From: Parvicella tangerina
GTDB lineage: Bacteria > Bacteroidota > Bacteroidia > Flavobacteriales_D > Parvicellaceae
Assembly (NCBI RefSeq): GCF_907165195.1
Contig: NZ_OU015584.1
Location: 3,110,978-3,174,977, forward strand
DNA: 64,000 bases
Reading direction: 5' to 3'
The notes under the pieces are model-generated. The model had not been told where the DNA came from and did no database searches. It saw nothing but the letters and a program-made list of their open reading frames with translations. The position numbers were made by a program, and so were the translations under genes. This document shows positions 42,282 to 52,303 of this stretch, in pieces; position 1 is the first letter of the stretch, and the number at the start of each line of letters is the position of its first letter.

Positions 42282-42382
42282 AGACTTCAAGACCCTTAGA
42301 TTTTAAGACTTCGCTTCGCGATTAAGACACCTTCTTAGATTAATTTATCGTTAGAAGGGGCTTAATGTCTTAATATCTTTTG
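42282..42382. repeat. Hairpin element A, between yqeY and ftsZ
   Basis: This 100-bp element has words TTAGATTTTAAGAC (42296-42309) and GGCTTAATGTCTTA (42359-42372). A TCGC-TTC-GCGA hairpin is at 42311-42321 and a CCTTCT/AGAAGG stem at 42330-42358. The words and stems recur in element B upstream of ftsZ. It fills the gap downstream of ftsZ. Confidence 0.7.
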
Positions 42383-44294: not shown

Positions 44295-44329
44295 TTTATT
44301 TTTTGTTTTTGTTTGTTTCTAATTCATCG

Positions 44330-44420
44330 ACTGTAAGACTTTTAGATTTTAAGACCTCGCTTTGCGGTCAAGACCCTTCTTATATTATCTCAACCTAAGA
44401 AGAGGCTTAATGTCTTATAT
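44330..44420. repeat. Hairpin element B, between ftsZ and ftsA
   Basis: This element is homologous to A: it shares the 14-bp words TTAGATTTTAAGAC (44342-44355) and GGCTTAATGTCTTA (44404-44417). It has a CTTCTTA/TAAGAAG stem (44376-44382 with 44396-44402) and a GC-rich hairpin near 44353-44369. Outer TAAGAC and GTCTTA can also pair. Confidence 0.7.
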
Positions 44421-47899: not shown

Positions 47900-49006
47900 T
47901 TATAACCCAATGATGGTCATCACCTCATTACATATATCTTCAGCCGCATTCGGTTTCCCCAATGCAGCTATATTCTTACTTAATTCGTTCATTTTTGCCT
48001 CATCTTGAAGCAAAGCCAATATCTCAGGCACTAATTTCGCCTGAGAATCAACGTCTTTCACAAGGAGTGCCGCTGATTTATCAACAAGCGATTTTGCATT
48101 TTTCGTCTGATGATCCTCTGCAACATTAGGTGAAGGCACCAGCACGCAAGGCTTTTGCACTAAACAGAGCTCACTTACCGAGAGTGCTCCAGCCCTACTA
48201 ATTACGACATCCGCTGCTGCATAAGCTAAATCCATTCTTTTGATGAAGGCCATCGGCTTTATGTTTTTATCTCCATGTGCATCAGCCTTTTTTGCCATTT
48301 CCTCTTCGTAGATCTTTCCGGTCTGCCAAATCATTTGAACTCCAGCATCTGTTAACTTCTGAAGGCCTTCTGCTATACTATCGTTTAGTGTTCTGGCGCC
48401 CAATGATCCACCAATTAATAAGATCGTTTTCTTATTGGGGTCTAACCCAAAGTGTTCGAGTGCTTCTTCCCTTTTTCCGTCAAGATCCAAAATATCCTTC
48501 CGGACTGGATTCCCTGTCATTACGATCTTTTCCCTTGGAAAAAAGTGCTCCATATTATCATAAGCCACACAAATCTTACTGGCTTTTTTTGCAAGAATCT
48601 TATTGGTTAAACCAGCATAAGAATTCTGTTCCTGCAGTAAAGTGGGTACTCCCAATTTTCCAGACTGAATCAAAGTTGGCCCACTTGCATAACCACCAAC
48701 TCCTATTGCTATCATTGGATTAAATTCTTTTATAATCTTCTTAGCAGCCATCTTACTCTTTAGATACTTGAAAGGGAAATTCCAGTTTTTCCAAATCTTC
48801 TTTCGTTGTATTCCAACAATATCCAACCCTTTAATCTCGAATCCAGCAGCCGGAACTTTCTCCATTTCCATTTTACCATTTGCTCCAACAAACAGAATAG
48901 CCGCACCTGGATACCTTTCTTTGATTGTGTTCGCAATTGCTAATGCAGGGAATATATGCCCTCCAGTACCTCCACCAGATATGATCACTCTCGGTTGCTT
49001 ACTCAT
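47900..49006 (-). CDS. murG: UDP-N-acetylglucosamine-N-acetylmuramyl-pyrophosphoryl-undecaprenol transferase
   Basis: The 368-residue GT-B glycosyltransferase converts lipid I to lipid II. The G-loop GGTGGHIFPAL is at 12-22, the second glycine loop is GGSLGARTLNDS, and the sugar-binding region has EDHQTKNA. It overlaps ftsW by 4 bp. Confidence 0.96.
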   Translation of the reverse strand: MSKQPRVIISGGGTGGHIFPALAIANTIKERYPGAAILFVGANGKMEMEKVPAAGFEIKGLDIVGIQRKKIWKNWNFPFKYLKSKMAAKKIIKEFNPMIAIGVGGYASGPTLIQSGKLGVPTLLQEQNSYAGLTNKILAKKASKICVAYDNMEHFFPREKIVMTGNPVRKDILDLDGKREEALEHFGLDPNKKTILLIGGSLGARTLNDSIAEGLQKLTDAGVQMIWQTGKIYEEEMAKKADAHGDKNIKPMAFIKRMDLAYAAADVVISRAGALSVSELCLVQKPCVLVPSPNVAEDHQTKNAKSLVDKSAALLVKDVDSQAKLVPEILALLQDEAKMNELSKNIAALGKPNAAEDICNEVMTIIGL

Positions 49007-50154
49007 GCTATTTGTTTTTCATTTGATTCGACACTCTTACTCACATTCAATAGTATTCCAATAGAGACACAGGTAAAAAGAATGGATGTTCCTCCCATAC
49101 TGATCAATGGTAACGGTTGCCCCGTTACCGGAAGCAGGTTAACACCCACCCCCATGTTAATCATAGCCTGCAAAACCAGTAAAAAACTTAGTCCAAAGGC
49201 AACATAAGCCCCAAAACTGCTTTGAGCCTTTAAAGCGACTCGTATACTCCTAAAAAAGAAAGTTAAATAGAGGATCAACAATATAAAAGCTCCTATCAGC
49301 GACCCAAACTCCTCTATAATCGTAGCAAATACAAAATCCGATTGAGCAGAATAGGTATCGTTTTTGACATTTCCTCTACCTGGCCCCTTACCGATCAATC
49401 CTCCATTCACAACTGCAGTTACTGCCTGCATGGCCTGATAATTATCTATTTTTGTTTTTTCATCTTCTTCTTCAGCCTCACCCCCAAAAAAGCTAACTAA
49501 CCTAGTTTCCCAAGTTGTTGCTCTTGGTAGTATACCGGTAAAGTGATTCACCATTAACAGAAACATGAACAACACAATTGCACCACCCACCACAGCGAGC
49601 AAATGTTTTATTTGTACTCCACCAACAAAGAGTAAAATAAAGCTAGCTAATCCAAGCATAAATGCAGTAGAAAAATCAGCGGGTAAAATCAACACACAGA
49701 TCCCGGCAATTGGAATCATTAACGGCAATACGCCTTCTTTGAAATCGTGCAATTTGTCATGTTTAATAACGAGCAGCCTTGCCAAGTATAAGATCAGCAC
49801 AATCTTCGCAAGGTCTGAGGGCTGAAACCCCATAATCCATCTTTGGGCAGAGTTAATGTTTCTACCGAAAAGCAATGTCATGAGCAATAATATTCCTGCT
49901 ACCCATATCCCCATTTGAGAAATACGGGAAAAGTATTTGAATTTAAAATGCTGCAAGTAGATCATAACGACAAACCCAACAACCAAGGTAGCTACATGCT
50001 TAAACCAAAATGGAGTAGCATTCCCTTCAGTAAGTCGATATGCCATATTGGAACTAGCACTCAACGCAATTACCGTTGAAGCCAAGGTCAGCAGAATTAC
50101 AACTGTCCAAATGGTCTTATCGCCTTTTAGGTATTTATCTATTATTTCTTGCAT
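49003..50154 (-). CDS. ftsW: FtsW/RodA/SpoVE family glycan polymerase
   Basis: The 383-residue SEDS protein has about ten helices. The conserved AQRWIMGFQPSDLAKI segment, the KNDTYSAQSDFVFATI catalytic-loop region and the C-terminal signature PVTGQPLPLISMGGTSIL are present. In a dcw cluster next to murG it is FtsW, the septal glycosyltransferase partner of FtsI. Its upstream gap holds hairpin element D. Confidence 0.93.
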   Translation of the reverse strand: MQEIIDKYLKGDKTIWTVVILLTLASTVIALSASSNMAYRLTEGNATPFWFKHVATLVVGFVVMIYLQHFKFKYFSRISQMGIWVAGILLLMTLLFGRNINSAQRWIMGFQPSDLAKIVLILYLARLLVIKHDKLHDFKEGVLPLMIPIAGICVLILPADFSTAFMLGLASFILLFVGGVQIKHLLAVVGGAIVLFMFLLMVNHFTGILPRATTWETRLVSFFGGEAEEEDEKTKIDNYQAMQAVTAVVNGGLIGKGPGRGNVKNDTYSAQSDFVFATIIEEFGSLIGAFILLILYLTFFFRSIRVALKAQSSFGAYVAFGLSFLLVLQAMINMGVGVNLLPVTGQPLPLISMGGTSILFTCVSIGILLNVSKSVESNEKQIA

Positions 50155-50164
50155 CCTATTTCTT

Positions 50165-50244
50165 GGACACTTGATATTTGACGCTGGACGCTAGACGGAC
50201 ATCTTAAGGAGGCGTCTAGAGTCAAAAGTCTTCAATCAAGCGTC
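50165..50244. repeat. Hairpin element D, between ftsW and the orphan MurD-like gene
   Basis: This 80-bp element aligns without gaps to element E (50748-50827), with 65 of 80 bases identical by eye. It contains CTAGACG/CGTCTAG arms around a 15-nt loop. Its end overlaps the stop codon of the orphan gene, so the last residues LDA derive from the element. Confidence 0.75.
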
Positions 50245-50733
50245 TAATTTTTCAACCAGTGTTCTGAAATGTTCTCCTCTTTCTCTGTAGTTCTCATATA
50301 ATGCAAAGCTTGATGTCCCTGGTGAGAACAACACTACATCATCTCCCTCTGCCCATTCACTGGCAGTTTCTACAGCTTCTTCTAAAGTTGATTTATGCGC
50401 ATAACCGTCTACCATGTTCGCAAAGGAGTACTTTAGGTTTGTCTCATATGCTCCGAAACAGATGATCTGTTTCACTTTATACTTTACCAGTTTCTCAAGC
50501 ATACTGTAAGGGAGTTCTACTTCAGAACTTGCTGCGATCCATATCACTGGCTTCTCCATTAACTCAAGTGAGTAATAGGTAGAATCCAGGTCAGTAGCTT
50601 TGGAATCATTGATCCATTCTACCCCGTTGATCTCGGCAACCGACTCCAACCGGTGTGCGATATCCGCAAAAAGGCTCATACTCTTCTTCCGAGCCTCCAG
50701 CATTTGGTCTTTTAATGACTTTGTTTTATTCAT
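50236..50733 (-). CDS. Stand-alone MurD C-terminal domain paralogue
   Basis: The 165-residue protein resembles only the C-terminal domain of MurD, encoded just upstream. HRLE at 27-30 and NDSKATD at 42-48 match HRLE and NDSKATN of MurD, and SPGTSSFALYENYRERG near residue 137 matches SPACASFDLFENYEERG. Key ligase features are missing: no P-loop domain, GGxDKG is replaced by ASSEVE, and the Asp of ASFD is Ala. So a catalytic ligase is unlikely. It is an intact frame with ATG 50733. It may bind MurD or a precursor, or be a partial duplication that is still translated. Confidence 0.8.
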   Translation of the reverse strand: MNKTKSLKDQMLEARKKSMSLFADIAHRLESVAEINGVEWINDSKATDLDSTYYSLELMEKPVIWIAASSEVELPYSMLEKLVKYKVKQIICFGAYETNLKYSFANMVDGYAHKSTLEEAVETASEWAEGDDVVLFSPGTSSFALYENYRERGEHFRTLVEKLDA

Positions 50734-50747
50734 TGTGTTCAATTATA

Positions 50748-50827
50748 GGACGCTAGATGTTTGACTCTGGACGCTGGACGAACAACCTAAGAAGGTATCT
50801 AGCGTCAATAGTCTCTAATCAAGCGTC
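50748..50827. repeat. Hairpin element E, between the orphan gene and murD
   Basis: This 80-bp copy is homologous to D. GACGCTAGAT at 50749-50758 and ATCTAGCGTC at 50797-50806 are perfect 10-bp inverted arms, with an inner ACCT-AAGA-AGGT hairpin. It follows the murD stop by a few bases. Confidence 0.75.
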
Positions 50828-50833
50828 AAAATT

Positions 50834-52177
50834 TTATAATGATCTAACCGCTCTTTTGAACTTATTACCTCTCTCTTCGTAATTCTCAAAAAGATCAAAA
50901 CTTGCGCAAGCAGGAGACAATAATACCGTGTATCCTTTCTTGGCTAATCTGTAACCTAGTCCAACTGCTTCTTCAGCTGAAGTCGCGTCCCAGATGTTCT
51001 CTACCAAGCCCTCGAATGCTTTGTGCAGTTTTGAGTTATCTTTTCCCAGACACACGATTCCTTCTACCCTATCCTTCACTAATCCTTCAAGCATGGTGTA
51101 GTCGTTTCCTTTGTCTACACCACCTGCGATCCAGATCGTAGGCTTTTGCATACTTTCGAGAGCATACCAGGTAGAGTTTACATTCGTAGCTTTTGAATCG
51201 TTAATAAAATCGATTCCGTGCACTGATGCTACGAACTCCAATCTGTGTTCTACATTTTGGAAATCAGATAATGATTCTCTGATAATTTCCTTTCTAATTT
51301 CTAATACTCTACTAGCGATACTTGACGCCATAGAATTGTAAGCGTTGTGCTTACCTTGCTGTGCTAATTCGTGAATAGACATGTTTGTTTGTTGGTTGTT
51401 AATGTTAGTTTGTATTTGTTTGTTTGTTGTTACCCAAGCTCCTTCAGTCAGCTCTACCTCGTGAGAGAAAGCGTACATCCGTTGCTTGAAATTTCGTTTG
51501 TTGTTTTCTGCTTGTATAGTGGGGTCATCGTAGTTGTAGATGAACACATCATCAGGACCTTGATTCTGAACGATTCTGAATTTACTATCCACGTAATTCT
51601 GGAATTTGTAATCGTATCGATCCAAATGGTCTGGTGTGATATTCAGAAGTATTGCAATGTCTGCTTTAAAATCAAACATTCCATCCAGTTGAAAACTACT
51701 GAGTTCAAGAACATAGTAGTCATAATCACCTTCGGCAACGAGTGCAGCAAAGCTTTTACCAACGTTTCCACCAACGGCCACGTTGAGTCCAGCTTGTGAA
51801 AGGATGTGATACAACATCATGGTTGTAGTCGTTTTACCATTACTTCCTGTGATGCAAATCTTCTTAGCAGTCGGTTTCACATATCTTCCTGCGAATTCGA
51901 TTTCTGAAATAACCGGAATACCCTTCTCGCGCAACTCAACGATCATTGGCACTGTATCCGGTATCCCCGGACTTTTGATTACCTCATCAGCTTTGAAGAT
52001 CTCTTCGTGCGTATGCACTCCTTCTTCCCACTTTATGTCATTATTTAAAAGAACTTCTCTGTGTTTGTCTTTGAGTTTCCCCCTATCAGACACCCACACA
52101 TCAAACCCCTCTTTCTTTGCCAGAATAGCAGCTCCGACTCCACTTTCGCCCGCTCCTAGTATTGCTATTCGTCTCAT
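50834..52177 (-). CDS. murD: UDP-N-acetylmuramoylalanine-D-glutamate ligase
   Basis: The 447-residue full-length MurD adds D-Glu to UDP-MurNAc-L-Ala. N-terminal RRIAILGAGESGVG, P-loop GSNGKTTT at 111-118, HRLE and NDSKATN in the third domain, GGVDKGNDY and SPACASFDLFENYEERG are all intact. Element E follows the gene and element C precedes it. The next gene is its truncated paralogue. Confidence 0.96.
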   Translation of the reverse strand: MRRIAILGAGESGVGAAILAKKEGFDVWVSDRGKLKDKHREVLLNNDIKWEEGVHTHEEIFKADEVIKSPGIPDTVPMIVELREKGIPVISEIEFAGRYVKPTAKKICITGSNGKTTTTMMLYHILSQAGLNVAVGGNVGKSFAALVAEGDYDYYVLELSSFQLDGMFDFKADIAILLNITPDHLDRYDYKFQNYVDSKFRIVQNQGPDDVFIYNYDDPTIQAENNKRNFKQRMYAFSHEVELTEGAWVTTNKQIQTNINNQQTNMSIHELAQQGKHNAYNSMASSIASRVLEIRKEIIRESLSDFQNVEHRLEFVASVHGIDFINDSKATNVNSTWYALESMQKPTIWIAGGVDKGNDYTMLEGLVKDRVEGIVCLGKDNSKLHKAFEGLVENIWDATSAEEAVGLGYRLAKKGYTVLLSPACASFDLFENYEERGNKFKRAVRSL

Positions 52178-52183
52178 TGTTTT

Positions 52184-52290
52184 TCGATTTTACGATTAAA
52201 CGATTTGCGATTTCGCTTCGCGAACACGACTACTTCTAAACTGCCGCTTAGAAAGTGTCGCAAAATCGTGTAGTCGTTAAATCTTTTCAT
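52184..52290. repeat. Hairpin element C, between murD and mraY
   Basis: CGATTTT/AAAATCG (52185-52191 with 52262-52268), TTCGC-TTC-GCGAA (52212-52224), ACGACTAC/GTAGTCGT (52226-52233 with 52270-52277) and TTCTAA/TTAGAA (52234-52239 with 52248-52253) give a nested structure. Its layout matches elements A and B, but with different words. Confidence 0.7.
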
Positions 52291-52303
52291 CGTCTTTATT
52301 CAT

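Follow-up and report, generated by a model that had tools for sequence, protein, structure and literature searches.

An old stand-alone copy of the MurD C-terminal domain conserved between murD and ftsW in many Bacteroidia, with hairpin elements that probably arrived later

A short open reading frame (ORF) lying between murD and ftsW in a 64-kb window (the whole stretch of DNA analysed, part of the complete 3.98-Mb chromosome of the genome coded G000) is almost certainly an ancient, conserved murD paralogue that encodes nothing but the C-terminal domain of the enzyme. On this reading the 3' end of murD was copied long before the family arose, purifying selection has since maintained the copy in the murD-ftsW interval of many Bacteroidia, its D-glutamate site has been lost, and the hairpin elements D and E that flank it are later, independent insertions. 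The setting of this orphan ORF is a dcw-type cluster, with murD on one side and ftsW on the other, and the features concerned are as follows.

50834..52177, minus strand: murD, 447 aa, full length, C-domain catalytic residues all present
50743..50835, strand not given: element E, a 93-nt heptamer-repeat hairpin in the murD/ORF spacer
50236..50742, minus strand: stand-alone MurD C-terminal-domain ORF, 168 aa from TTG 50742 or 165 aa from ATG 50733
50160..50252, strand not given: element D, a 93-nt heptamer-repeat hairpin in the ORF/ftsW spacer
49003..50154, minus strand: ftsW, the constant neighbour downstream of the orphan ORF

Judging by the starts of its relatives, the ATG at 50733 is the likely true start of the orphan rather than the TTG at 50742. 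In a profile search the ORF passed the cut-off for PF02875 (Mur_ligase_C; 32.2 bits against 28.4), and its match to the MurD equivalog TIGR01087 covered positions 292-440 of 441 only and scored 129.2 bits, below the cut-off of 211.95. No PF08245 or PF21377 match was found in the 168 aa product, indicating that the N-terminal UDP-binding and central ATPase domains are missing, and the original prediction that the ORF resembles only the MurD C-terminus is borne out by these matches. An AlphaFold2 model generated from 20 sequences (pLDDT 81, pTM 0.78) had MurD structures as its best PDB matches; by VIA-align the predicted fold superposed on A. baumannii MurD 7sir with a Z of 21.1 and an rmsd of 1.9 over 137 residues, and the best 30 rows were all MurD (Z 17.6-21.4). 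The orphan shares 69/161 amino acids (43%) with its own MurD, and alignment of its DNA to the murD 3' end, a check that had been proposed with the prediction, gave 256/483 identical nucleotides (53%; 0.52/0.66/0.40 by codon position), indicating an old copy. It had also been suggested that an orphan closer to the MurD of another lineage would have been acquired by transfer. MurDs of other genera and families do slightly outscore its own MurD against the orphan (for example that of G009, 129.5 vs 122.2 bits), but as the ORF occupies the same slot throughout this is read as an effect of age; acquisition by transfer is unsupported, the orphans also clustering together in trees.

The closest relatives of the orphan are the corresponding ORFs in the murD-ftsW interval of other genomes, with 84% identity in one congener. 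The search of related genomes recommended at the outset recovered it widely. Among 37 genomes of the window's family, 32 had MurD plus a short second match, the remainder comprising G030 with the short ORF alone, G027 with MurD alone and three genomes with neither. Within the same order, families f10 and f11 have one orphan ORF in the murD-ftsW slot, and families f2, f3 and f7, together with G050 of f4, have two; none was found in the mapped genomes of families f5, f6, f9 and f13, and many families lack the ORF, which indicates that they can dispense with it. Across the class, a stand-alone MurD C-domain was present after inspection in 38/129 sampled Bacteroidia genomes, 42 having at least two matches and four (G219, G253, G258 and G272) being removed with the second match lying within an ORF of 823-833 aa; further second matches exist in eight f8 and two f9 genomes beyond those identified. 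Outside Bacteroidia it was found in 0/61 sampled genomes of the phylum, two of which gave no match at all and one of which (G310) gave a second match amounting to a fragment of 88 aa where a contig begins. No ORF with two matches, as expected of a natural MurD-ORF fusion, occurred among the matches listed in the class survey; the long ORFs of G222, G256, G181 and G285 (517-753 aa) are apparently upstream-extended frames and the 862-aa ORF of G283 is apparently an mraY-murD frame. A record titled Chryseobacterium gleum (L102) has the orphan and groups in f10 like G055, and its title may be a mislabel.

At 63 loci the ORF or ORFs directly follow murD and are directly followed by ftsW, the median gaps being 13 and 9 nt, an operon-like arrangement. 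Where murD is separated from the orphan (four loci, with one or two intervening ORFs in G010, G017 and G032 and separate contigs in G212) the ORF still directly precedes ftsW in 4/4. Linkage is thus tighter to ftsW than to murD, hinting that the partner which stays constant is the pathway's membrane end. In genus g8 one or two Pfam-less ORFs lie between murD and the orphan (L054:3415-5012, L057:3436-5487, L058:1951-3063). The second tandem orphan of f2, f3 and f7, beside ftsW, carries a basic N-terminal motif, TIHK(S/G)KKS (L060, L061, L065, L070, L073, L077 and L079), suggestive of a specialised second subunit. In G053 (f8) the murD-ftsW slot contains a 157-aa Pfam-less ORF (L074:2633-3106) with an hhalign probability of 60% to the orphan profile, perhaps a very diverged orphan on this sequence match, and highly diverged MurD C-domain ORFs with no adjoining murD or ftsW were seen outside the dcw cluster at L121, L124, L135 and L136 (G212, G216, G254 and G176).

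The age of the copy was assessed from trees. In a set of 16 orphans and 16 MurDs from the family and near relatives (32 hand-chosen rows) the two groups separated at 100/100, and duplications confined to the family (AU p = 6.2e-5) or to the genus (AU p = 2.1e-88) were both rejected, which places the copying of the gene before the origin of the family as a whole. A tree of 123 rows (62 MurDs and 61 orphans) was likewise divided by a single branch (SH-aLRT 75); left out of it were G050 o1 and o2, G039 o1, the G053 and G283 ORFs, the G239 MurD and four non-dcw copies, and further MurDs and orphans were thinned as near-duplicates. When outgroups were included (74 rows), 22 orphans, drawn from the order of the window and from further families in the class, grouped at 98/86. 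On the outgroup trees (hand-chosen, 74 or 72 rows) the orphan/MurD label changes four times in one and three times in the other, and a single clade of all orphans had an AU p of 0.785; a separate duplication confined to f24 was not rejected in this noisy set (p 0.807), nor was one confined to f1 (p 0.113, compared with 6.2e-5 in the cleaner 32-row set). The 123-row tree and the AU value of 0.785 favour one origin for the class-wide orphans, and the label changes and the f24 result leave several possible.

Orphan dN/dS values (NG86) were 0.084-0.121 for three pairs in genus g2, 0.034 in g7 and 0.074 in g6, the last with saturated dS; dS is also saturated in the window's own genus, so the figures come from these three genera. 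As judged from coding sequence, the orphan is under purifying selection in g2, g6 and g7 (dN/dS 0.03-0.12). The claim of an ancient partial murD duplication retained as an open frame stands. The dN/dS ratios already contradict the idea that the ORF is a functionless, decaying relic of duplication, as does its ancient, intact, operon-like register at 63 loci; the very diverged ORF in the G053 slot (hhalign probability 60) and the losses in mapped f5, f6, f9 and f13 genomes would suit decay, and we regard a relic as very improbable.

The flanking elements have a different history. D and E align ungapped with 74/93 identical positions (80%), confirming the gapless alignment with some 65 of 80 identical bases first described, the best ungapped match to D in window positions 1-40000 being 42/93. 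Both fold as long hairpins (-29.6 and -30.4 kcal/mol; z -5.2 and -5.3; 0/200 shuffles as good) with a 7-nt period, and they are the only two at z > 3 among 26 window spacers of at least 40 nt. The orphan's 3' tail reads GAA AAA TTA GAC GCT TGA in G000 and GAA AAT TTA TAA in the congener G002, such that D contributes the last two residues (Asp-Ala) and the stop codon; the proposal that the element supplied the end of the protein was thus correct. Neither element was found at either position in the congeners G002 and G003, in which the same-place spacers measure 38 and 6 nt and 206 and 53 nt, respectively. Tandem YARCGTC heptamers number 14 in this genome, one each in G002 and G003 and none in eight other family genomes (reversed-pattern control, 0). 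A genome search with the element itself gave 14 matches, two of them near-full copies of the 93-nt sequence and 12 partial. Absence from the congeners and near confinement of the heptamers to this genome indicate that D and E were inserted after the genus split, on this sequence distribution far later than the gene copy and independently of it.

The repeated order gene-element-gene-element and the 80% likeness of D and E could also be explained by a single recent tandem duplication of the murD 3' end with its hairpin, as in the original prediction that C-terminus and element were copied as one unit. That part of the prediction did not hold: the copying of the gene came before the family (AU p 6.2e-5, and 2.1e-88 at genus level), the elements are missing from G002 and G003, their identity of 80% contrasts with 53% DNA identity between the genes, and the heptamer-repeat type is nearly confined to this genome, leaving such an event exceedingly improbable. 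Similar flanking hairpins need not share the history of a gene, and caution is warranted when tandem duplications are read in this way.

Several identities were considered for the elements. A role as intrinsic terminators was rejected, there being no T run, and a scan of the minus strand at 49900-52300 finding nothing that resembles a terminator. No Rfam match was found within the window. The elements may have a role in mRNA processing. With respect to REP/BIME elements, the palindromic hairpin is present but many dispersed copies are not (two near-full); one PF01797 ORF (185 aa, C1:2624123-2624380) is a possible Y1 transposase (RAYT). Like heptamer direct repeats and REP-like hairpins, D and E combine 7-nt periodicity with long hairpins. 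Intergenic heptamer repeats (TAACTGA) are described in some Bacteroidetes (PMC4679880), from which D and E differ in their heptamer, YARCGTC, and in having just two near-full 93-nt copies in the genome. Degenerate heptamer arrays (YARCGTC and kin) also occur around G000:C1 2526241-2527644, 2560381-2560408 and 3913365-3915256, nearly confined to G000 among the family members examined. A second pair of locally alike neighbouring spacers (window 42283-42372 and 44329-44417), differing in sequence from D and E, is 81-83% alike over two blocks with start-to-start distances of 2046 and 2045.

Residues of the C-domain were counted in 78 orphans and 92 MurDs using E. coli MurD numbering, four copies far from the dcw cluster being left out. 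The equivalent of K348, the D-Glu lysine, was present in 6/78 orphans compared with 91/92 MurDs, and was absent in 72/78 orphans including the window ORF. Orphans retained H301 in 64/78, R302 in 57/78, D317 in 69/78, T321 in 62/78 and S415 in 59/78 cases, each of these being present in 92/92 MurDs; R302, D317 and T321 were jointly present in 50/78, with at least one missing in 28/78. The least changed orphans are the f24 copies (GGVDKT) and that of G297 (GGVDKG). Published work on MurD casts R302 as a handle for rotation of the C domain, in contact with ADP (PMC4816537), and reports that K348, T321 and S415 bind the carboxylates of a D-Glu mimic (PMC3527612). Lacking both the ATPase domain and K348, the window ORF is very unlikely to carry out MurD-type catalysis. 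With regard to a split ligase, the genome has seven PF08245 ORFs, six of them with PF02875; the seventh (797 aa) gave no PF02875 match at E 0.001 but is far longer than a bare M domain, and no C-less Mur ligase partner for the orphan was evident among the seven.

Loss of K348 with retention of the nucleotide-side residues in most copies makes a non-catalytic MurD partner or adaptor the most likely role. We lean slightly towards the explanation as a whole, an old non-catalytic paralogue that is a partner of MurD or of the precursor/divisome complex; the working mode, a non-catalytic partner docking in trans and recruiting or tuning MurD, is put forward tentatively. In such a mode the orphan product would be made next to MurD and FtsW and would use its retained hinge and nucleotide-side C-domain face to bind in trans to MurD, or else to MurG or an adjacent Mur enzyme, thereby recruiting or tuning MurD at the membrane precursor/divisome complex. 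That a docking face persists is inferred from the retained residues, which may be structural legacy. Partial correlations of distance matrices with the orphan, over 17 non-independent genomes, would point to MurG (0.54) rather than to MurD (0.04-0.08) or FtsW (-0.15). A more specific form, which we consider possible but doubtful, is a dedicated Bacteroidia adaptor or regulator that is non-catalytic and couples MurD/MurG precursor synthesis to FtsW, duplicated in some Flavobacteriales families into two specialised subunits, one with the conserved basic IHK-KKS N-terminus.

The residue pattern, with the nucleotide side kept and the D-Glu lysine lost, would also fit a decoy, in which the lone C domain takes the closed-state position on the ATP side of the MurD central domain, so that MurD is inhibited or gated. 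A precedent is MigC of A. baumannii, reported as a protein inhibitor of MurD with a Ki of 32 uM (PMC12208494). However, R302, D317 and T321 are incomplete in 28/78 copies, and a decoy is considered rather unlikely. An improbable further role is that of a ligand sensor binding nucleotide or UDP-MurNAc-peptide and signalling precursor level to FtsW/MurG, for which the presence of H301, R302 and D317 in most copies and the constant neighbour ftsW would speak; the D-Glu lysine is lost, and Mur ligases bind UDP-MurNAc mainly through the N and central domains, both missing from the orphan. Should the non-catalytic partner be confirmed, a large bacterial class would have in its division and wall operon a one-domain pseudo-enzyme copied from an essential ligase, and the long-standing idea of a Mur enzyme complex at the divisome would become directly testable. 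For annotation, a lone MurD C domain encoded next to murD should be treated as a conserved gene and not as a broken murD.

No description of a lone MurD C-domain gene was found by title or abstract among the matches listed from the open-access full-text literature. MurD2, which we take to be a full-length ligase, differs from the orphan, a single domain without the D-Glu site. It belongs to an alternative L-Glu pathway and is described as likewise a MurD paralogue (PMC8788868). In the MurT/GatD lipid II amidotransferase a Mur-ligase-like protein is reported in complex with a non-Mur partner (PMC6085368), and MurT is among the fold matches of the predicted orphan structure (Z about 12), but MurT still has its central ATPase domain, its partner GatD is a glutaminase and the gene context differs from that of the orphan. 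As a protein that modulates MurD, MigC is another precedent, but it is a COG0523 GTPase and not a Mur-ligase domain, and MurG is described as scaffolding the Mur enzymes (PMC6420597); none of these three systems is a lone Mur-ligase C domain. The closest likeness remains that to the C-terminal domain (PF02875) of MurD itself (TIGR01087), with which the orphan shares sequence (43% to its neighbour) and predicted fold (VIA Z up to 21) and from which it differs in being a separate gene, without the N-terminal and central domains and with the D-Glu lysine lost.
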